NCBI GenBank assembly: GCA_020724265.1
Contig: DYHH01000033.1
Span: 1-37,628, forward strand
Direction: 5' to 3'
DNA length: 37,628 nt
DNA from: Melioribacter roseus
GTDB lineage: Bacteria; Bacteroidota; Ignavibacteria; Ignavibacteriales; Melioribacteraceae
Part shown: positions 161 through 37,622 of the stretch, one piece after another
How positions within the stretch are numbered: position 1 is the stretch's first letter
Layout of the letters: each line of letters starts with the position of its first letter
Translations under genes and position numbers: made by a program
The notes under the pieces: generated by a model
The model's input: only the letters and a program-made list of their open reading frames with translations
Databases searched by the model: none
What the model was told of the DNA's origin: nothing

Positions 161-811
161 ATGGAAAAGAATATCACTGGTATTGTACTCTCCGGCGGAC
201 AAAGCTCTCGTATGGGTAAAGACAAAGCTCTGATGAAAGTCGGCACAAAATCTATTATTGAAATAATGATTGATAAGCTGAAACCGTTTTGCAATGAGAT
301 TTTAATCAGTGCAGATGAAATAGATAAATATTCTCAATTCAGATTTAAAGTTGTACGGGATAAATTCAAGAACAGCGGACCGCTTGCCGGAATTTATTCT
401 TCACTTCTTGAATCAAATACAGAAAAGAATTTTATTATTTCTTGCGACTTACCACTTGTATCTCAAAATATTATTGAAAATCTAACAACCACTGAGTCAA
501 CAAAAGAAATAATTCTTCCGGTTACGGGTGAAAAGTATCATCAACTTTGCGGAGTTTATTCGAAATCTGTTTTGGAAAATGCTGAGTCTATCTTAAGTGC
601 GGAAGATGAGAAAGGGAGAAGCAAGGAAAAGGAGAAAAGGGGAAAAGGAGAAGGGGAGAAAGGGGGCATGAAGAGAAATACTTCTGTTAAAAGATTACTC
701 GAGATTTCTCAAGTTGAGTTTGTTGATGTAACTTCAATCTCCGGAGAAAATGAATTTTTGAATATGAATACTGTTGAGGATTTTGAGTTGATTCGAGAAT
801 TACTATTGTAA
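161..811 (+). CDS. mobA: Molybdenum cofactor guanylyltransferase MobA
   Basis: This cytoplasmic enzyme transfers GMP from GTP to molybdopterin to make the bis-MGD cofactor used by enzymes such as the PsrA encoded 2 kb downstream. The N-terminus shows the nucleotidyltransferase signature GIVLSGGQSSRMGKDKA (residues 7-23), followed by GPLAGI and the metal-binding SCDLPLV strand. A GTG at 146 would add five residues, but the ATG at 161 puts the conserved beta-strand near the N-terminus as the family expects. Neither start has a good Shine-Dalgarno sequence. At about residues 148-175 the protein carries a charged low-complexity stretch (KEKEKRGKGEGEKGG). It is encoded by an almost pure purine tract that interrupts the usual 'SAE..KG.SVKRLLE' region. 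The frame stays open and the C-terminus (VEFVDV...NTVEDFE) is intact, so the gene is probably functional. MobA assignment is confident from motifs. Confidence 0.9.
   Translation: MEKNITGIVLSGGQSSRMGKDKALMKVGTKSIIEIMIDKLKPFCNEILISADEIDKYSQFRFKVVRDKFKNSGPLAGIYSSLLESNTEKNFIISCDLPLVSQNIIENLTTTESTKEIILPVTGEKYHQLCGVYSKSVLENAESILSAEDEKGRSKEKEKRGKGEGEKGGMKRNTSVKRLLEISQVEFVDVTSISGENEFLNMNTVEDFELIRELLL
607..682 (+). repeat. Purine-rich low-complexity insertion inside mobA
   Basis: Nearly every base is A or G on the + strand, including an uninterrupted 44-base purine run from 623 to 666 bounded by single C residues at 622 and 667. It is made of GGAGAA/GGGGAGAA-like units and keeps the mobA reading frame. 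The surrounding codons look like ordinary MobA, so this is either an expanded simple repeat or an inserted purine-rich element. Confidence 0.7.
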
Positions 812-875
812 TATTATATCCCTCGTGGTTTATTTTCTATTGTTTTAGAAAGTAACCATTCTAAAAATTTTTGGA

Positions 876-1985
876 TCAAGTTCTTTGTAGCCAAATTTTA
901 AAGAACACATCCTCAATCACATAATTATTGCTATCGAAGTAAACTAATCCATTTTTAAGTAATACATCTAATGCCGTCTTAATAGAACTAGGTGTGTTTA
1001 AATCATATTTCTTTATAAAATCTTTTGATGTAATCTGTTTTATACCGTTTTCCTTTGCTATGGCAGATAACAGATTCCACTGATTCGCAGTAAGCAGATT
1101 TTTATAATTAAAGTAGAACGTTTCGTTTTCTTTTAAAATTGCCAATAATGTATTATAGATTACTTGTTGATTGATAATGTTGACATCAGTTGAATAAAGT
1201 CGATTGCAAAGATATTGGACAAAGTAAGTATGATTTTCACTGAGGCTGAGAATAAGTTCAATATTAGGTTTATCAATTTCCTTTTTCCCTTTCTTAAAAT
1301 GATAAGCAATAAATTTTTCGTAATCTTTCAAATCGATTTTCTCCAAATGAAAAAGTTCGCCCGACTGATAAAATGGTTTTGACTTATCTTTGAACATGGA
1401 TATCAACAAGTGATCTTGGCTCCCCGAAAAAATACAAGTTACATTTGGTGATTTTTGTAAATTTGTCCTTAATATCGCTTCCATATTTTTTTGAGGATAT
1501 TCGGCAATTTGTTGAAATTCGTCCAATGCTATTATTACTTCTTTTTTTTGATTATTGAGAAAGTCAAACATATTTTCAAGAGTTGTTTCAACATGCTTGT
1601 CTGTTTCCCAAGTAAATGAAAAGACTGGATTCCCTGTAAATTGATCATAAGTTATAGTTGGTCTTAACGAACTTAAAAGATTTTTAAGTTTCTCCGTCAT
1701 CCGTCCAAAAACAGAATCGAATGCATTTATAACCGCGTTAGCAAATAGTTCGGTGAATTCCTTTTGATTACGCGTTGCATATAAATCAATGTAAATAATA
1801 ATTTTTTCCCCCCTTTTAAGTTGATTAAATGTATGATGAATCAGGGCTGTTTTTCCGATTCGCCGTCTTGAAAAGAGTGTAATGTTTCTATTATTTACTA
1901 AAGATTCGATAAGTCTTTTTGTCTCCCTTTCTCTGTCGCAGAAATATTCCTGTGATTTATAACCTGTTATTAGAAACGGATTCAT
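876..1985 (-). CDS. AAA-type ATPase of the archaeal ATPase_2 family
   Basis: This is a stand-alone P-loop ATPase of about 369 residues. The N-terminal pattern YFCDRERETKRL precedes the Walker A region SRRRIGKTAL (residues 39-48), in which a run of arginines replaces the usual glycine-rich lead. A Walker B strand, IIALDEFQQIAEYP, follows near residue 155, and FSGSQDHLL looks like a sensor-1 segment. The C-terminal third is probably a winged helix (NQWNLLSAIAKENG... DLNTPSSIKTALDVLLKNGLV). Such proteins are widespread in archaea and Bacteroidota and their cellular role is not established. The ATG at 1985 has an AGAGG Shine-Dalgarno five bases upstream. The GTG at 1991 overlaps that site and is less likely. 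The gene converges with mobA and has no operon partner. Confidence 0.8.
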   Translation of the reverse strand: MNPFLITGYKSQEYFCDRERETKRLIESLVNNRNITLFSRRRIGKTALIHHTFNQLKRGEKIIIYIDLYATRNQKEFTELFANAVINAFDSVFGRMTEKLKNLLSSLRPTITYDQFTGNPVFSFTWETDKHVETTLENMFDFLNNQKKEVIIALDEFQQIAEYPQKNMEAILRTNLQKSPNVTCIFSGSQDHLLISMFKDKSKPFYQSGELFHLEKIDLKDYEKFIAYHFKKGKKEIDKPNIELILSLSENHTYFVQYLCNRLYSTDVNIINQQVIYNTLLAILKENETFYFNYKNLLTANQWNLLSAIAKENGIKQITSKDFIKKYDLNTPSSIKTALDVLLKNGLVYFDSNNYVIEDVFFKIWLQRT

Positions 1986-13014: not shown

Positions 13015-13102
13015 ATTAATTGATTACCGTATAAATTATAATTGTATTTTTATTGGACTAAGTTAATCAAAAATATCAACGTAATGAAAAGCGGTTGAAT
13101 TT

Positions 13103-14881: not shown

Positions 14882-15304
14882 AAATAACTGAAGTTACGCG
14901 ACCGTTCGTAATATCCTATATCCGTTACTATCAATAAGAAATAGAAAACATATAAAGAGGTTGTTAAAAAAACTTGAAAAGAAAATTATTCGCTACTCGA
15001 ATTGGCAGTAGGATAAAATTCTATGAGTTAAAACAAAAACCATAAGCCGCCAATTCGCGAATCAGCGACAAAAAAGTATCGTTTCAAGCGTTATGTTTTT
15101 ATTTGCAAAATTAAAAAGCAGAAACCATAATTCGCCAATTCGCTAATGTATTAACGATTAGCACTGATACGCTGATATTGACTGTCGGCAGATTACGTTT
15201 AGGTCTAACAACAAGCGAAATTTTAACTTATAGAAATCTGTGAAAATCAGTTGTATCTGTGTCATCAGTGTGCCGTTAGTCGTATTGCGTAACTTCAGTA
15301 AATA
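14882..15304. mobile_element. MITE-like element with 13-bp terminal inverted repeats and 5-bp target duplication
   Basis: The ends ACTGAAGTTACGC (14887-14899) and GCGTAACTTCAGT (15287-15299) are perfect inverted repeats. They are flanked on both sides by the direct repeat AAATA (14882-14886 and 15300-15304), the pattern left by a transposition event. The 413-bp element has no plausible coding sequence. Its interior contains two related blocks around AACCATAAGCCGCCAATTCGC (15040-15060) and AACCATAATTCGCCAATTCGC (15123-15143), and degenerate repeats of ATCTGTG/ATCAGTG near 15235-15272. It fills almost the whole gap between the rmlD-like and DUF134 genes. It is probably a non-autonomous element, or an IS that has lost its transposase. 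Confidence 0.7.
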
Positions 15305-17810: not shown

Positions 17811-19547
17811 ATGAGAAAGCGTGAAAAACTAAGGGATTTGTTTTTTTACCTATTATTAGGTTTTTTCACCCTTGCTATCCTTGCGCATGCACAAAGTGAA
17901 ATAAAGTTAGAAAATGTTGAGCCTGGTTTTGTCGATTATGGTTCATTTTCAATTACTAATGACGGTGAAATAAAATTAACTGGAAGTGTTGCCGGATTTG
18001 AGAAATGGGGACAAAAAACTTATTTCTACGGTTGGATTCTTGATGCTGATTCACGTAATGTAGTTTGGCATATGCTTGATGATAGAGAAATTCGTGAAAG
18101 GTTAGATGAAAATGATTTTATTGATATCGATAAAAAAATATCACTAAAAGCAGGAAACTACGAAATTTATTTTACCGGGGGAATAAATTCTGCCAATATC
18201 GAAATAAAAGGTTTTAAAGGATTGATTAACAAAATTTTCGGCAAGGGACAGAGAGAGTATCGGCGTAGATACAGAGATCAACTTTATCTAAAAGTGACTG
18301 GAGTTTCGGGGGGATTCTCTGTCGTAGATAAAAACTATTTTGCAGATGCTCTCGCTGCCAATTCTGTTGCAAGCTCAATTCGAACCGGTGATAATGAAAA
18401 CATCAAACTTCCGTTTGCATTAAGTAAAGAAACCAAGCTGCGTGTTTATGCACTCGGCGAAGGTTCCCGCGATCGTGTTTATGATTACGGGTGGATTTAT
18501 AACGCATCTACTTATGAAAAAGTCTGGCAGATGACTAATCGGCGTTCCGACTTTGCCGGTGGTGCAGAAAAAAATATTATGTTTGATGATGATATTACTC
18601 TTCCCGAAGGACACTATATAGCCGTATATGTTACGGATGATTCTCATTCCTTCGATGAATGGAATCAATTGCCTCCCGATGATCCGCAGTTTTGGGGGAT
18701 TACTATTTGGGCTGCTACCGATGCCGACAGCAAAAACATTATTGCTTTTGACAAGGATAAAATAGTTAAACCGTTTATTGAAATTATTAAAGTAGGTGAT
18801 AACGAATTCAAGAAACAAGGTTTTACTCTTAAAAAAGATATGGAAATTTTGATTCATGCTTTTGGTGAAGGTTATGATAAACGACGTCTTTCAGATTATG
18901 GGTGGATTGTTAATGCCGATAACGGTGAAAAAGTTTGGCACATGGAAAAAGCTGATATTCAATACGGCGGCGGTGCTCAAAAAAACCGGATGGTTCATGA
19001 AAAAATTAAACTGAATAAAGGAAATTATATTGTTTTTTATTCAACCGACGGTTCACATTCTTATAATAGATGGAATGCTGCTCCTCCTTTTGACCCTGAA
19101 AGATGGGGAATAACTCTTTGGGCTACTAACAAAGATGATAAAAATTTTATAACCGTTTTTGACCCGGATGATTTTCAAAGTGAAAAAGTTATTACTCAAA
19201 TAACACGTGTGCGCGATAATCATTTTGAGTCAAAACCATTTACTATAAATAAAACACAGCAAGTTAGAATTATTGCAATCGGTGAAGGTTCAGATGGAAG
19301 AATGTATGATTACGGCTGGATTGAAAATGCGGATACAAAAACAATTATATGGGAAATGACTTTTAGAAAAACCGATCATGCCGGCGGTGCGATGAAAAAC
19401 AGGAGATTCGACGGCAATATTACTCTATCACCCGGCAAATATAAACTTTACTACGAAACAGACGGATCTCATTCATACAGAAGATGGAATGCTACTCCTC
19501 CTCCTAACCAAGAAATGTACGGAATTACTTTAATGCGAGTTGAATAA
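17811..19547 (+). CDS. Secreted protein of three to four ~137-residue repeats, unknown function
   Basis: This 578-residue protein starts with a signal peptide (basic MRKREK, then FFYLLLGFFTLAILAHAQ). I recognise no named family. Three clear tandem repeats of about 137 residues follow a degenerate first copy. The conserved DYGWI is centred at residues 225, 362 and 500, and the first copy has FYGWI at about 72. Each repeat has the order GDNxxxxxFxL, R(I/V)xAxGEG, DYGWIxNA, (V/I)WxM, GGAxKN, (L/I)xxGxYxxxYxTDxSHSYxxWN, PPxxPxxWGIT. The aromatic and acidic conservation suggests beta-sandwich domains that bind sugar or metal. There is no T9SS sorting domain at the C-terminus, so it probably stays in the periplasm or outer membrane. 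The ATG at 17811 follows GGAG by seven bases. A terminator hairpin follows the stop. Confidence 0.8.
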   Translation: MRKREKLRDLFFYLLLGFFTLAILAHAQSEIKLENVEPGFVDYGSFSITNDGEIKLTGSVAGFEKWGQKTYFYGWILDADSRNVVWHMLDDREIRERLDENDFIDIDKKISLKAGNYEIYFTGGINSANIEIKGFKGLINKIFGKGQREYRRRYRDQLYLKVTGVSGGFSVVDKNYFADALAANSVASSIRTGDNENIKLPFALSKETKLRVYALGEGSRDRVYDYGWIYNASTYEKVWQMTNRRSDFAGGAEKNIMFDDDITLPEGHYIAVYVTDDSHSFDEWNQLPPDDPQFWGITIWAATDADSKNIIAFDKDKIVKPFIEIIKVGDNEFKKQGFTLKKDMEILIHAFGEGYDKRRLSDYGWIVNADNGEKVWHMEKADIQYGGGAQKNRMVHEKIKLNKGNYIVFYSTDGSHSYNRWNAAPPFDPERWGITLWATNKDDKNFITVFDPDDFQSEKVITQITRVRDNHFESKPFTINKTQQVRIIAIGEGSDGRMYDYGWIENADTKTIIWEMTFRKTDHAGGAMKNRRFDGNITLSPGKYKLYYETDGSHSYRRWNATPPPNQEMYGITLMRVE

Positions 19548-19600
19548 ATAAGACCGGGGATAATGAGAAAATCTAAAAACATTTTGTTATCCCCGATTTT
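19541..19600. terminator. Terminator hairpin, copy 1 of a dispersed 60-bp repeat
   Basis: The stem CGGGGATAA (19555-19563) pairs with TTATCCCCG (19587-19595) and is followed by ATTTTT. A smaller inner pairing AAAAT/ATTTT extends the hairpin. It lies just after the stop of the secreted repeat protein and before the end of the convergent protease gene. The whole 60-base segment recurs at 24195-24255 with two substitutions and one indel. Confidence 0.75.
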
Positions 19601-19617: not shown

Positions 19618-22600
19618 TTATTTTAAAATCATCATCTTTTTGCTGTCTGTAGAATTACCCGAAGTTAATTTGTAAATATATAATCCGCTAGCTAAGCCGC
19701 TTCCATCGAATTCAACTTCGTACTCTCCCGCATTCAGAGTCTCATTAACAACTTCTGCTACTTTTCGACCTAATGCATCGTATACTTCTAATTCAACTTG
19801 AGCTTGTACGGGAATTGAAAAACTAATCTTCGTAGTTGGATTAAAAGGATTTGGATAGTTACCAAATAATCTAAATTCTTTCGGTTTTGAGTTATCTTCA
19901 GCAGAAGTAATTCCATTTCCAAATTTGGATGTTGAAGAACTCTCAATTCCTAATTCTGAATTTATCAACCATTTTGCAAATTTTACATTATCTTCTTCTA
20001 TAAATTTTTCGGAGACAGATTCTATAACTTTAAGTGCTGCATCGAATTCTTTTTTGTTAAAATGATAGTAAAATAAATCCACAATTCCATGCAACTCGTG
20101 AATCGTATTCATGGAGTATTCCCGAAGCTTTGTATTGAAAAGTAAAAAGTCAGGTTCGGATTTGTCATATAGAGAAAGATTCGAGATGACCTCTAAAGCA
20201 AGTGGTTTATATTCTTTAACTTCCTCTTTTGAAGATATTATGGATTCTAATAAAGTAAGTACTCCCGGGATTGAATATGCTTTATATAAGAAATATAAAT
20301 CGGAAATTGCAAACATAACTTCCTTCTCGTTAATCTTCGAATTTATTATCTGCTTATAAATATCAAAAGCACTTTGATAATCTTTTTGAAACAAAAATTC
20401 GCGAGCTTGGCTTAGTGAGCTTAGGGAAGTTATGCTGTTTTCTCCAATAGAATTTTTACTATTCCCAGTTGCAATTGCATCCTGCCATTGATTATATGGA
20501 GAATAATCTACTGATGACGTCCCATCCACAGTAACTCTTGAGGGTGGATTCGGATTCCACCAATTTTTTTTAGCACTTATTGTTGTATAACTGGAAGCTC
20601 TTACATTTGCATAGGTATTATTTGAAAAAGTATTGTTATAACCATTCGTACTGCTGCCAGCATTTATATTGCAATGATAATTTCCCCAAAGTCCGTGGTA
20701 ACCATTTTGTAGAGTATTCCAACCTTCTTCATAACCGCCTGATGGAGCAGCGAAAAGTGGTGTTGAAAAATAATAACAATTAACTCCGGCATGACCTGAT
20801 GAACTGGGGCCTGTTATATTGTTATATCTTAAATATGCGTTTCCATTATAAATATAAATACCGCTTAGAGTATTATTTCTTATCGTATTGTTGTATATAT
20901 ATGGAACGCTTGTTCCTGTATTGATTATTGAAATTCCATGAGAACTAGAATTATTCTCAATTGTGCAATTTTTTACAGTTGCAGAACCGCCGCCAATCAT
21001 AGATATTGCTGCACCACCGTATGTATAAACATTTTCAATGGTACATCCGTCAAGTATACCTGAACTACCGCTGCGGAACTGAATACCGCCCCAAGTTGAG
21101 GAACTAGTAAATGTAGTGCTTGTTGCGTTGAGTGTGCCGTCAACTATAATTCCCTTTCCTGAAGCAAAAACCAGCTGTGCACCGGAAGGGATTGTAAGTG
21201 TTTTGCCTGATTGAATAGTAAGACTTTCGTTAAAGTACCATTTACCAACTGTCAAGGTTGTATTTGAATTAATTGTATAATCATTGATTTCAATATTTGC
21301 TTTTATCGTGGATCCTTCTTTTCTGATATTATTAACAGTAAATCCAGTTGTAATAGATTGAGCGTAATTTTCAGAAGAACTATTAACGATAAAATTGCTA
21401 TTTGGATTACTTTTAAAACTAAATTCTTGTCCAAATCCTGGAGTATAAAACACTGTACCATCACCTTTATCAATATCCTTATACGGACCTGCTATTTCTG
21501 TTTTCCCCGACACTTTTCTAATCTCAAGTTTATCTCTGCCAATTAGAGGATTTCCAACACCAGTATTTATTACTTCATTTTCGGTTATATACCAAATTGT
21601 TTTACCATGTGCTGCTTCAATATCAACAGGCATTATTCTCCAATCGCTGAATGATGGGTTAAACAACCCAATACTTGGAGTTGTTGAGTGCCAGATTAAT
21701 ACACCACCAACACTTGAGTTAGCATAAGGATATTCTTGATAAAATGGATTATTGAAGGGATCATCATCATGAAAAGAAATATAAAATCTCTGAGTTCCGT
21801 AACTACCTGAGGGTTGTGACGGTTGATAAACATAAACCTTTTGATTTTTTTGAAATTCTTCAAGTACAAAATTTGAGTTGCTCGATGAAATAACAGTTGG
21901 TGTTATCCAACCCCTTATAGCTCTAAAAAACGGGTTATAAGGTGATGGTGCTCCGTTAAAACCTCCACAACTCATGACATCAAATCCCCCCAATCCGTAA
22001 TGATTACGTAGAAAAATCCCGCTATGATCAATATCCGGGAAATTAAACTCTCCATGCCCAAGTTCATGAGTATACACATTCCTTAATAATGAACCGCTAC
22101 TACCTCTACTTTGCCTATTAACAATAATTTCAATAGGATTTCCATTACTGTCTAAATCGGAGGTTGTATAAGTAATATCGCAAATAACGCCACCACTTTT
22201 AGACCCGATTGAAACAAAATGAATAGGAACTTTCCCATCACCATTATAATCATAATTATTAAAATCATAACGAGAATCAGCATCTGCAAGTACTCCTATG
22301 ATATTAAAATAATTGTGAACATGACCGTTTGGTGATCCTGGCGAACTGCCGCACAGACCGTTAAAAGGAACATCATATGAATTTGGCATTTCAAATGCAT
22401 TACCTGGTGTATCTTCCAAAAGAACTATATCAAGAGAATAATTATCAAATGTGGAGGTCTCTATAAAATCTTCCGAAAAAGTTACTGCATCATAAACCCA
22501 CGTTGGTATAGTCGTAGAAGCGTTAGCATCTACAGCTAAAATCACTATATCTGTTATTGTTGTTACTCCGGACTGAACGGTTGCTTGTGCTTTTGTTGGC

Positions 22601-22698
22601 GTTGTAAGAATCGCGTCGTTTATCGAATTTGTTTGTGCAAAAGAAACGAGACAAAATACTAATACAACAATTAACATAGCAAAAATTTTTGTTTTCAT
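19618..22698 (-). CDS. T9SS-secreted M6-like metalloprotease with a beta-helix domain
   Basis: This 1026-residue protein has a signal peptide (MKTKIFAMLIVVLVFCLVSFAQ). The catalytic domain contains HELGHGEFNFPD (His211, Glu212, His215) and a Met-turn-like YGLGGFDVMSCGG, as in M6/immune inhibitor A peptidases. The third zinc ligand, an aspartate, is normally six residues after the second histidine. Here the nearest aspartate (Asp222) is seven away. Residues about 475-720 form a right-handed parallel beta-helix (repeated 'GxxIxNNTxxGIxIxNG' strands: TIENNSSSHGISI, IRNNTLSGIYIYNG), a fold often involved in polysaccharide binding. An alpha-helical stretch follows, and then a T9SS type A sorting domain (NYPNPFNPTTKISFSIP ... 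KMMILK, about 945-1026). TAGGAG lies 6 bases before the ATG. It lies 31 bases after the PD40 gene, probably in one operon. Confidence 0.85.
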   Translation of the reverse strand: MKTKIFAMLIVVLVFCLVSFAQTNSINDAILTTPTKAQATVQSGVTTITDIVILAVDANASTTIPTWVYDAVTFSEDFIETSTFDNYSLDIVLLEDTPGNAFEMPNSYDVPFNGLCGSSPGSPNGHVHNYFNIIGVLADADSRYDFNNYDYNGDGKVPIHFVSIGSKSGGVICDITYTTSDLDSNGNPIEIIVNRQSRGSSGSLLRNVYTHELGHGEFNFPDIDHSGIFLRNHYGLGGFDVMSCGGFNGAPSPYNPFFRAIRGWITPTVISSSNSNFVLEEFQKNQKVYVYQPSQPSGSYGTQRFYISFHDDDPFNNPFYQEYPYANSSVGGVLIWHSTTPSIGLFNPSFSDWRIMPVDIEAAHGKTIWYITENEVINTGVGNPLIGRDKLEIRKVSGKTEIAGPYKDIDKGDGTVFYTPGFGQEFSFKSNPNSNFIVNSSSENYAQSITTGFTVNNIRKEGSTIKANIEINDYTINSNTTLTVGKWYFNESLTIQSGKTLTIPSGAQLVFASGKGIIVDGTLNATSTTFTSSSTWGGIQFRSGSSGILDGCTIENVYTYGGAAISMIGGGSATVKNCTIENNSSSHGISIINTGTSVPYIYNNTIRNNTLSGIYIYNGNAYLRYNNITGPSSSGHAGVNCYYFSTPLFAAPSGGYEEGWNTLQNGYHGLWGNYHCNINAGSSTNGYNNTFSNNTYANVRASSYTTISAKKNWWNPNPPSRVTVDGTSSVDYSPYNQWQDAIATGNSKNSIGENSITSLSSLSQAREFLFQKDYQSAFDIYKQIINSKINEKEVMFAISDLYFLYKAYSIPGVLTLLESIISSKEEVKEYKPLALEVISNLSLYDKSEPDFLLFNTKLREYSMNTIHELHGIVDLFYYHFNKKEFDAALKVIESVSEKFIEEDNVKFAKWLINSELGIESSSTSKFGNGITSAEDNSKPKEFRLFGNYPNPFNPTTKISFSIPVQAQVELEVYDALGRKVAEVVNETLNAGEYEVEFDGSGLASGLYIYKLTSGNSTDSKKMMILK

Positions 22699-22729
22699 TT
22701 CTTGCTCCTATTTAAATAATATCCATCAC

Positions 22730-23950
22730 TTATTTTGTTAATACCATTTTCTTTACTGAATAATTATTATTCTGAATTAACTGGTAATAATACACTCCGC
22801 TGCTTAGGCCATATTTCTCTGCATTAAATACTATTTCATATTCACCTGCTGGTTTTTCCCCGTTAAATAAAACTGCTATTATTCTACCTAATGAATCATA
22901 TACTAATAATTTTACAATACTAGTTTGCTCAACAACATAGCTAATAGTTGTTGATGGGTTAAAGGGATTTGGATAGTTTTGTCTTAATGAAAAGGAAATT
23001 GGTTGTTGAGAGAAGTTTTCATCTGTGACCGAGGTAACCGTATCTCCGTTTTCATCTACCAATAAATATGAGATAAAGAGATTACTCGTATTATCTGCAC
23101 TGTCAGGGTGTAAAGGTACATTTCTGTTGGATGAAAATATTAGGATTTTCCCGTCGGAAGATATCCATGGGTAATACTCTCCCCCTCTTTTAGTAATGTT
23201 AACCCATGGAACGGTTTGAGTATTAATATTGAGATAAAATACATCTCCCCAATAATTTGTCGTAGTATCCCAATAGGTTACACACAAATCTATCGCCCAC
23301 TCTTTTTCCCATCTTCTTTTGCCAAAGTACATCTTTTTCTTATCACCTATCAGGCTTAATCCATACATTTCAGCTCCACCTATTGGGTGGTACCAGAAAC
23401 TATCTGCTTTTTCCCACTGTCCTGTATTCTTATCTAAAACATAAAAATTTGGATATCGTGTTTGCTGGGTTACATAGATTGTATCATTACTAACCTCATA
23501 AATATATAAATCGTGTCCTTCAGTATTTATATTGGGACCCATATTGAAAGCTTCAGACCAATCATTAAGCGTATCATCCCAATCGGAATACCATAAATCC
23601 CAGCCTCCAAATCCACCCCAGCCTGAGAAGTATAATCTCTTTCCATCTTTACTAATAGAAGGAAATCGAGTTGCAACACCACCGGGATTAATATTTGAAT
23701 TAAGCATCTCAGGTTCTTGCCATTTATCATTTTCTTTGACTGAGAAATAAACACCATCACCCATATCTAAATATAGTGTATCTAGGTTTGGTGTTAATGA
23801 TGGAGACTCTAACCACATGTAGGGTTTGTTAAAAACAGAATCAAGTAAAACCGGTTCACTCCATATCTCCGGTGCAGTTGGCCATTCCTGGGATAAGAGA
23901 GGTAAATTTATCAGTAACAAGAAAATTAATATATTTTTTAACCTTTTCAT
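22730..23950 (-). CDS. T9SS-secreted PD40/WD40-like propeller protein
   Basis: This 406-residue protein has an N-terminal signal peptide (NILIFLLLINLPLLSQ). PD40-type propeller repeats follow: SPSLTPNLDTLYLDMGDGVYFS, FPSISKDGKRLYFSGWGGFGGWDLWYSDWD, and YPWISSDGKILIFSSNRN. The C-terminal 80 residues are a T9SS sorting domain (NYPNPFNPSTTISYVV ... SGVYYYQLIQNNNYSVKKMVLTK). It is therefore secreted across the outer membrane and probably surface-attached. Its ligand or partner is unknown. An AAGGA site precedes the ATG. It is the first intact gene of an operon with the M6-like protease, and a collapsed T9SS gene lies directly upstream. Confidence 0.85.
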   Translation of the reverse strand: MKRLKNILIFLLLINLPLLSQEWPTAPEIWSEPVLLDSVFNKPYMWLESPSLTPNLDTLYLDMGDGVYFSVKENDKWQEPEMLNSNINPGGVATRFPSISKDGKRLYFSGWGGFGGWDLWYSDWDDTLNDWSEAFNMGPNINTEGHDLYIYEVSNDTIYVTQQTRYPNFYVLDKNTGQWEKADSFWYHPIGGAEMYGLSLIGDKKKMYFGKRRWEKEWAIDLCVTYWDTTTNYWGDVFYLNINTQTVPWVNITKRGGEYYPWISSDGKILIFSSNRNVPLHPDSADNTSNLFISYLLVDENGDTVTSVTDENFSQQPISFSLRQNYPNPFNPSTTISYVVEQTSIVKLLVYDSLGRIIAVLFNGEKPAGEYEIVFNAEKYGLSSGVYYYQLIQNNNYSVKKMVLTK

Positions 23951-24026
23951 TTTACAATTCCTTTTTATATCGTGATCTTCATAAGAAAATTACACTAAAG
24001 AAATTTCTTTTTCATTCTGCACCTCC

Positions 24027-24173
24027 TCATTTAATTAAAATCATTGGTTTTGTAATTTCGTTTGATTCCGAAACTAAGGAGTAATAATAGACTCCTCATT
24101 TAAGTATTATATTTATTTGAGTAAAACAAATACTGCTTAAAAAAATAAATAAAATTACCTGCAAGATTTTCAT
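24027..24173 (-). pseudogene. Collapsed T9SS cargo gene: signal peptide joined to sorting-domain tail
   Basis: On the minus strand, the ATG at 24173 opens a signal peptide, MKILQVILFIFLSSICFTQ, that runs a few residues to an in-frame TGA at 24098-24096. The same frame then resumes with GVYYYSLVSESNEITKP and ends MILIK with a TGA at 24029-24027. That second part is exactly the end of a T9SS sorting domain (compare SGVYYYQL ... KKMVLTK in the next gene). The whole middle of a secreted protein is missing. CTCCTCATTTAA occurs as a direct repeat at 24023-24034 and 24092-24103, marking the likely recombination points. The gene is too short for standard callers. Confidence 0.75.
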
Positions 24174-24194
24174 ACTAACAAAAGTTAAGAATAT

Positions 24195-24255
24195 TGAATA
24201 AAATAAACCGGGGATAACGAGAAAATCTAAAAACATTTTGTTATCCCCGATTTTG
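24195..24255. terminator. Terminator-like hairpin, copy 2 of the dispersed 60-bp repeat
   Basis: CGGGGATAA (24209-24217) pairs with TTATCCCCG (24241-24249). Relative to the copy at 19541-19600 it has two substitutions and one indel. On the minus strand the hairpin is followed by GGTTTATTTTATT, so it can terminate the hypothetical gene that ends at 24299. No + strand gene precedes it, unlike copy 1. Confidence 0.65.
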
Positions 24256-24298
24256 TAGGGGAACTTATAAGGTTTTCTTATAAGAAAAAATTGATTAG

Positions 24299-24886
24299 TT
24301 AATATCTCTCAACAACAACTTTATCAAAATGATTAAATACTTCTTTTTGTTCCAGGGTTAACTCTTCGCCAAATATTATCTTAATTAAATTATTGCGTGC
24401 AATCATAGATTCGTATATATCATCAGAGAATAAAATCTCGATGTAATCTTCTACTTTTGATATACTTTCCTCTTTGCCGCAAAATGAAAGCAGCATAGAA
24501 AATATTTCGTAGAGTTTATGTTTATCAAAATTCTCGGAGTGGTTGTTATAAGCAATTGCCAAAGTTGCACCGGCAAAGTATGCAAGCTCTATTTTTACAT
24601 TACCATGAAGGGAAATTTTTTCTTTAATCAAACTAAAGAATGCAGTCAAGTATTCATAAATGTCACGTTCATTTCTATACCCGGGAAAAGTAATTATCGA
24701 TTCACCAAAAACATTTTTATAATCATCTTCAAATAAAAAGAGAGTTTTGTAATTCTGCTTACAATTGAGGGTGATAGGATTTTGTGTATTGCCCCCTAAT
24801 AATGATTCAATTTCACTTTCGAATAGAGAAAAAAAGTAGCCTAACTTAAAGGAAGATGCGATAACCTTACTAAGAGGGATCTGCAT
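24299..24886 (-). CDS. Hypothetical protein, 195 residues
   Basis: I do not recognise this protein. It is predicted soluble and mostly helical, without a signal peptide or membrane segment. Visible features are an acidic middle (LFLFEDDYKNVFGE), FPGYRNERDIYEYLTAFFSLIKEKISLHGNVKIELAYFAGATLAIAY, and an acidic C-terminal half (EDYIEILFSDDIYESMIARNNLIKIIFGEELT). The ATG at 24886 has a good AGGAG site five bases away, which supports real expression. It is a monocistronic gene with a terminator-like hairpin downstream. Confidence 0.65.
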   Translation of the reverse strand: MQIPLSKVIASSFKLGYFFSLFESEIESLLGGNTQNPITLNCKQNYKTLFLFEDDYKNVFGESIITFPGYRNERDIYEYLTAFFSLIKEKISLHGNVKIELAYFAGATLAIAYNNHSENFDKHKLYEIFSMLLSFCGKEESISKVEDYIEILFSDDIYESMIARNNLIKIIFGEELTLEQKEVFNHFDKVVVERY

Positions 24887-25222
24887 AAAACTCCTGATTA
24901 TAATGTACGAAATTAAATTTTTTGATATTCGTTAAATTGTTATAATTTCTATACTTACGAGGATTAAATATAGCAAAACTTTATATCCTCCGAATCCGTA
25001 TAATTACTTAGTAATAAAAGATTTTTTTCCTTACTACTAAGTACTTATACCTAATTATCTTCAAATCCTTGCAGTCAATATTTCTTTATAAAATAACTCA
25101 AAAAAGCAGTGTTGTGTTTACTAATTAATTTATCATCACAGCTATTAAGTATAACTGAATTGTGAAAAGTAAATTGTTGATTAACTCTAAACGGGGATTG
25201 AAAGGAAAATTATTTTGCGATT
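24887..25222. other. AT-rich intergenic region without recognisable genes
   Basis: I see no gene here. A weak hairpin, ACTTAGTA (25006-25013) with TACTAAGT (25035-25042), is the only structure noticed. The right part should contain the transcript end of the small membrane protein gene, and the left part the promoter of the 195-residue gene. Confidence 0.5.
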
Positions 25223-25600
25223 TTAATTAAGCGGATAGTTCTTTAGTGATGTTCTATTTTTTAATTGAGTTGTATTTAAAATACTATACCTGTTATTCTC
25301 CGGCGACTTATTTCCACGAATAATTATTCCGGAGTTATTCGTTATTATTTTTTCATCATTTGAATATGTTGGAGCGCTGTACTTTGTTTGGTTTAACAAT
25401 CCGGGTTCAAGGTTTGTATATTTTGTAGCATATTGATGATGGTACTTGATAATTTTTTTTAATTGCTCTCGATTCTGTGTTGTTTTTTCTTCATACTTAT
25501 TTTTAATGGTTTTGAAAAAAATGAAGGAGATTATTAACACGAATAAAAGTGCAGTAAGGAAATAAAAAATTATGTCTGTTATTAAGGGTATTAATTCCAT
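25223..25600 (-). CDS. Small single-pass membrane protein, hypothetical
   Basis: This 125-residue open frame begins with one long hydrophobic segment (ITDIIFYFLTALLFVLIISFIFF, residues 8-30). A basic, polar tail rich in Asn, Lys, Thr and Tyr follows (NKYEEKTTQNREQLKKIIKYHHQY), probably cytoplasmic. No domain was recognised. There is no convincing ribosome-binding site before the ATG. Composition and the clear transmembrane helix argue that it is real, but it could be a lineage-specific orphan. Confidence 0.5.
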   Translation of the reverse strand: MELIPLITDIIFYFLTALLFVLIISFIFFKTIKNKYEEKTTQNREQLKKIIKYHHQYATKYTNLEPGLLNQTKYSAPTYSNDEKIITNNSGIIIRGNKSPENNRYSILNTTQLKNRTSLKNYPLN

Positions 25601-37549: not shown

Positions 37550-37622
37550 GCCCACGTAGCTCAGGGGATAGAGCAACGGTTTCCTAAACCGCAGGTCGCA
37601 AGTTCGATTCTTGCCGTGGGTA
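37550..37622 (+). tRNA. tRNA-Arg (anticodon CCU)
   Basis: A complete cloverleaf folds. The acceptor GCCCACG pairs with CGTGGGT (first pair G-U). The D arm is GCTC/GAGC, the anticodon loop TTCCTAA gives CCU for AGG arginine codons, and the T arm is GCAAG/CTTGC with TTCGATT. The anticodon stem has one A-C mismatch at its outer pair. The discriminator base is A and the CCA end is not encoded. Confidence 0.95.

Follow-up and report, generated by a model that had tools for sequence, protein, structure and literature searches.

Probable remnant of a type IX secretion cargo gene ahead of a different cargo gene in an Ignavibacteria genome

The locus described here has partial counterparts among known systems. 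As in bacterial pseudogenes that arise by internal deletion, the two ends of a gene have been kept, its middle is gone, its frame is broken and the lesion is common to relatives by descent; as in type A cargo of the type IX secretion system (T9SS; PF18962 / TIGR04183), a signal peptide is found together with a sorting-domain tail of that type. The short open-reading frame (mini-ORF) that follows shares with the integron ORF-11 and ORF-18 leaders, as presented in PMC8876359, a ribosome site, a short ORF and a following gene that varies among relatives; the gene behind ORF-18 is described there as starting 45 bp downstream. With leader genes associated with ribosome reinitiation (PMC4833913), the mini-ORF shares the position of a short unannotated ORF ahead of a structural gene, and for Bacteroidetes that study gives a distance peak of 11-14 bp.

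The window, by which we mean the whole 37,628-nt stretch of DNA that was analysed, is contig C46 of a 3.77-Mb assembly from an uncultured bacterium of the Ignavibacteria type. The feature under study (Table 1) is very probably what is left, as two ends, of a T9SS cargo gene from a family of about 326 residues, which would have undergone an illegitimate deletion in a common ancestor and a later loss of 2 bp in the lineage of the window. As a gene relic it is genuine and of an ordinary kind, a deleted paralogue in a genome with more than 100 cargo genes.

Table 1. Positions of the remnant, its neighbours and the block shared by genomes G009 and G072 (window positions unless a locus is named)
Feature	Position	Strand	Remarks
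195-aa gene without family match	24299..24886	(-)	Conserved upstream neighbour of the remnant
Terminator-like hairpin	24195..24262	(-)	Between the 195-aa gene and the remnant
Remnant, 5′ half: putative signal peptide and start of the mature part of a 326-family cargo gene	24096..24173	(-)	80% DNA identity to the C7 gene; translation
Later 2-bp loss in the window lineage, approximate site	24108..24109	(-)	Alignment with the sister and the C7 gene; puts both halves in one frame
Upstream copy of TTAAATGAGGAG	24092..24103	(-)	Spans the junction; present in the sister too
Deletion junction AAATGA|GGAGTC	24095..24096	(-)	Out-of-frame loss of 832 bp compared with the C7 gene
Remnant, 3′ half: final 22 codons of a type A sorting domain	24030..24095	(-)	Tail profile E=1.3e-7; 88% DNA identity to the C7 gene
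Downstream copy of TTAAATGAGGAG	24023..24034	(-)	Covers the final codons, the stop and the ribosome site belonging to the next mini-ORF; reads AAATAAGGAGG in the sister
Leader mini-ORF MKKKFL-TAG	23995..24015	(-)	GGAGGTG ribosome site at 24026-24020
406-aa cargo gene (PD40, Por_Secre_tail)	22730..23950	(-)	Follows remnant and leader
1026-aa cargo gene (weak M6-like domain, beta helix, Por_Secre_tail)	19618..22698	(-)	
Second hairpin copy (93%)	19540..19600	(-)	After the 1026-aa gene
Near-identical G009/G072 block	L168 about 640-1780; L169 (reverse) about 515-1655		

Ancestry and age of the remnant

Read on the minus strand, positions 24173-24030 translate as MKILQVILFIFLSSICFTQINIILK*GVYYYSLVSESNEITKPMILIK, followed by TGA. 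The first half carries a putative N-terminal Sec signal peptide, recognised in the sequence, and its DNA matches the signal-peptide region of intact family members. The second half retains the last 22 residues of a Por_Secre_tail sorting domain, about 70% of which is missing; it was matched as a 22-aa open frame (E=1.3e-7) when the whole genome was searched with a profile of 30 sorting-domain tails, 28 of them from the own genome and the other two from the C7 gene and one sister gene, both close relatives of the remnant.

Both halves match one other gene of the same genome, C7 (326 aa), and the two matches meet at 24096|24095. The missing length is not divisible by three, and the frame is broken relative to C7. 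The intact C7 relative passes the cut-offs of PF18962 and TIGR04183, and its N-terminal 235 residues have matches, some of them partial and weak, in 24 of the family's 79 genomes, the own genome among them. At the 5′ point, intact relatives read AATGATGT (..LND..) in all eight distinct members printed, and at the 3′ point AG[TC]GG in all seven of these for which that point was printed, so that the two breakpoints share at most about 1 nt and the observed junction needed no longer homology than this. We infer that the deletion arose by illegitimate (non-repeat) recombination. Elsewhere, in genome G011 (L097), a 326-family gene is split across two frames (176 and 187 aa) and is possibly another decaying copy.

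The sister genome G001, whose contig matches GenBank DSBF01000069.1 (Ignavibacteria bacterium SpSt-1166), carries the 195-aa gene (159/195 residues identical), the terminator-like hairpin and the same deletion junction at the same place, and the deletion consequently predates the split of the two sister species. Its 5′ half keeps 2 more bases and with them the original frame (TQINIEYLNE vs AQIDIRYLND in C7), and its two halves lie in different frames; the apparent one-frame layout of the window is thus due to the later 2-bp loss. Neither a single open frame nor a body exists in the present-day remnant, which is interrupted by TGA in the window and by a frameshift in the sister. Rather than being a decayed codon, the internal TGA derives from the former Asn and Glu/Asp codons, which are read out of frame after the 2-bp loss.

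The sequence-only reading had described a collapsed T9SS cargo gene laid out in one frame as signal peptide, TGA, end of a sorting domain and final TGA. The layout is confirmed by translation of the minus strand, with 22 codons, not the 23 it had counted, separating the internal TGA from the final stop, and the collapse is supported by the tail profile, by the DNA of both halves matching C7, by the same structure in the sister and by the intact family members. The intact orthologue that it had proposed to look for in sister genomes was not found at the exact position, and the one relative in which the locus was found shares the short form. Among 20 genomes, the 195-aa neighbour is present in three (own included), with high identity only in G001 and weak identity (27%) in G004; a scan of genome contigs for the locus returned one, that of SpSt-1166, records of the window's own genome possibly being omitted.

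In the proposed course of events, one illegitimate deletion in the common ancestor would have ended the protein through loss of the body and a frameshift. The window lineage would then have lost 2 bp and its last codons would have come to end in TGA, which together would have given both the apparent one-frame layout and a 12-bp repeat. At present the remnant is most likely untranslated leader DNA in the operon of a different cargo gene, because it is placed with a terminator-like hairpin on one side and the next cargo gene's mini-ORF leader on the other. The fold at 24195-24265 reaches -21.5 kcal/mol (z -4.8); a consensus scan of 22600-25300 for promoters and terminators found no more than in shuffled sequence, with the hairpin at 24195-24262 absent from its output, and Rfam gave one match among 12 sources, a tRNA at 37550-37622. 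Two nearly identical terminator-like hairpins flank the cargo operon, one per side.

The genome as a whole holds 118 Por_Secre_tail matches at E<=0.001, and SprA of the T9SS apparatus is present (1068 bits vs a cut-off of 200). Collapse is rare in this genome: among at least 112 tails (E<=1e-3; a lower bound, with 150 of 271 first-look candidates scored and 122 listed at E<=5), two lie in frames below 100 aa, one being the remnant (22 aa) and the other a sorting domain at C39 that stands as an orphan (about 86-87 aa). The idea that cargo genes collapse frequently was rejected for this genome on that count. The C39 domain (L147 1700-1960) has no body or signal peptide and lies right behind a housekeeping-type gene, which from its sequence we take to be rRNA-methyltransferase-like.

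Conservation and alternative explanations

Between the window and the sister, 134 of the 144 sites of the remnant are identical (93%), with 75/78 in the 5′ half, plus a 2-bp gap, and 59/66 in the 3′ half. The 10 differing sites compare with 86/286 at fourfold sites of three neighbouring genes (P about 1e-11) and with 31/133 in three spacers (Fisher P 1.5e-4), which we chose ourselves and which leave out the terminator hairpin (62/67 identical). Such conservation is not expected of a dead relic and favours an alternative, namely that the short form is functional now, as a selected ORF of 25-33 aa or as a regulatory leader RNA, and a hairpin predicted across the junction in both species points the same way. 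The fold z-scores of that hairpin are nevertheless weak (-2.5 and -1.75), of three substitutions in the 5′ part of the short ORF, two are non-synonymous, and the species read its end in different frames. The identity also stands out less in a broader ranking: when overlapping noncoding segments of 144 bp were ranked across the four aligned sister contigs (C285, C144, C119 and C113, leaving out C187 at 67% and short matches), 10 of 183 were at least as conserved as the remnant, six of them more so, and 11 of 262 segments of 78 bp ranked likewise against the 5′ half. The equally conserved segments fall in two stretches, one of which overlaps a short ORF in the sister. In a speculative version of this alternative, ACTCCTTA in the tail would pair with either AGGAG copy, and ribosomes that finish at the first copy could release ACTCCTTA to mask the second, the ribosome site of the mini-ORF; AGGAG-CUCCU pairing, however, readily arises by chance. 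On balance we consider present function of the short form unlikely.

An untranslated relic may still be under constraint, and a retained promoter or leader function would be our guess at the cause of its higher conservation relative to nearby spacers. The description of the locus as a fossil accordingly stands for its origin by deletion and is uncertain for its dead state. Conservation of the short form under selection had been named as grounds against that description, and these apply in part: the one relative in which the locus was found shares the short form, at the identity given above, which exceeds that of nearby spacers. Two other stretches of the window also deserve mention: positions 13015-13102 are noncoding and identical to the sister at 85 of 88 sites, and 15028-15147 is a dispersed repeat, with similar DNA (72-75%) in three sister contigs.

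A far less probable alternative is that recombination between two 12-bp direct repeats made the deletion, as the sequence-only reading had it when it took the repeat to mark the breakpoints. Both copies of CTCCTCATTTAA exist where that reading had placed them (Table 1) and nowhere else in the window, and two copies occurred in 0/100 shuffles. A repeat-mediated deletion, however, leaves a single copy at the junction, not two around a retained tail; here the junction falls inside the upstream copy, and the sister, with the same deletion, has that copy only. The breakpoints of the 326 family are likewise without the repeat, as the two motifs read by its intact members show. The second copy is a difference at the stop codon beside the ribosome site, where the sister has AAATAAGGAGG. 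The remnant is older than had been assumed, and it was not produced by the 12-bp repeat.

Programmed recoding, in which readthrough of the TGA would join the signal peptide to the tail, is prompted by the two halves sharing one frame in the window and is scarcely credible, with the halves in different frames in the sister and a product that would have no body and less than one third of a sorting domain. Chance resemblance or assembly error, conceivable for pieces this short, can be dismissed in view of the tail profile, the DNA matches of both halves and a separate assembly, that of another genome, in which this structure recurs.

The mini-ORF leader and exchange of cargo bodies

Directly behind the remnant lies GGAGGTGCAGA-ATG-AAA-AAG-AAA-TTT-CTT-TAG, a mini-ORF of six codons that starts 65 nt upstream of the start of the 406-aa gene. 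The leader motif without its end has 13 matches (<=2 mismatches) in 11 of the 79 family genomes, with 0 for the reversed control. A sequence model trained on 14 sites gives 18 hits (E<=1e-3) across the order's 164 genomes, including the 14 training sites. Strong sites (>=26 bits) number 16 in 13 of the 164 genomes, all with a short ORF; they are partly dependent, G009 and G072 holding near-identical copies and G001 three sites, and exclude the weaker sites of G066 (20 codons) and G074:C369. The ribosome site belonged to the search model and is thus not independent evidence.

At these 16 sites the mini-ORF has 6 codons in 11 cases, 7 in two, 12 in two and 17 in one, and ends in TAA (10), TAG (3) or TGA (3). 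The next gene, with its start picked by a script, begins 61-68 nt past the mini-ORF start at 10 of the sites. A hydrophobic N-terminal segment above a threshold set afterwards is found in 16/16 of the next proteins vs 6/31 window genes, and leader sites (L052, L119, L120, L123, L124, L125, L126, L127 and others) lie upstream of exported-protein genes. Against a specific leader, weaker matches show a similar ribosome site ahead of long ORFs (L134, L139, L143), and the gene behind the 326-aa gene of C7 starts directly in such a context. The motif had 0 exact matches in viral contigs. No Ignavibacteriales paper on a small open reading frame was found, literature searches being the sole basis for regarding the leader as new.

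The cargo genes behind the shared remnant differ: the window has the 406-aa gene (PD40), and G001 a 439-aa gene with a 470-aa Kelch gene after it. When the tail plus leader of the window is aligned over 135 sites, it matches the G001 module before the 470-aa gene at 110 and the module before the 439-aa gene at 95, a pattern that would fit loss or gain of a 439-like gene between similar modules; an ordered-switch test of this similarity is not significant by itself (P=0.09). The 406- and 470-aa proteins are similar over their N-terminal 31 residues (14/31; pairwise E 0.004) and have no significant match from there to the sorting domain. The body of the 439-aa protein of G001 groups with a G009 protein (29% identity) and its sorting domain is nearly that of C7, the similarity to C7 starting at NNYPNPFN.

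The clearest case lies elsewhere than in the window, in G009 and G072, which belong to different genera and share a near-identical block of ~1,130 bp reaching from inside the leader to the QNYPNPFN codons with which the sorting domain starts. From 56 to 1135 bases past the ribosome site, 1074/1080 bases are identical, as are nearly all before that, back to the leader. Their sorting domains and downstream flanks differ, and their upstream flanks are partly similar (~85 bp adjoining the leader, with pieces of 154 bp at 82% and 79 bp at 77%). We take the block to be a probable case of recent transfer of a body flanked by two conserved anchors; the case is a single pair, for which contamination or shared-sample assembly is possible, and mutual comparison of 17 loci gave no other cross-genus pair with a block of such identity.

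The further claim that cargo genes turn over by recombination thus gains some support from the homology of leaders and sorting domains and from the G009/G072 block, but not by way of the 12-bp repeat. We tentatively suggest, as a possibility short of an even chance, that in genomes of the Ignavibacteria type the bodies of secreted proteins may be swapped as cassettes between a mini-ORF leader (MKKKFI-stop) and QNYPNPFN, that the leader may couple an arriving gene to an existing translation start, and that the collapsed gene may mark one site of exchange. No paper combining type IX secretion, pseudogene, sorting domain and recombination was found, and the novelty of the exchange is judged from literature searches only.

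Comparison with known systems

The remnant matters more as a pointer than as a relic. The sisters have different cargo genes behind it, and two genera share a 99% identical body with one end inside a mini-ORF leader and the other where a sorting domain starts. If exchange holds more widely, the diversification of T9SS repertoires becomes testable and tiny unannotated ORFs ahead of exported proteins gain a role.

Unlike an ordinary deletion pseudogene, the remnant is conserved above nearby spacers and occupies the position of leader DNA before an unrelated cargo gene; unlike T9SS type A cargo, it has no body, most of its sorting domain is missing and its halves are out of frame in the sister. 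The distance from mini-ORF to gene, 38-47 nt at 10 of the 16 sites, spans the 45 bp given for ORF-18 in PMC8876359 and differs from the 11-14 bp peak given for Bacteroidetes in PMC4833913. In contrast to the integron ORF-11 and ORF-18 leaders, as PMC8876359 presents them, the genes behind the mini-ORF have starts of their own, and at all 16 sites they begin like exported proteins.
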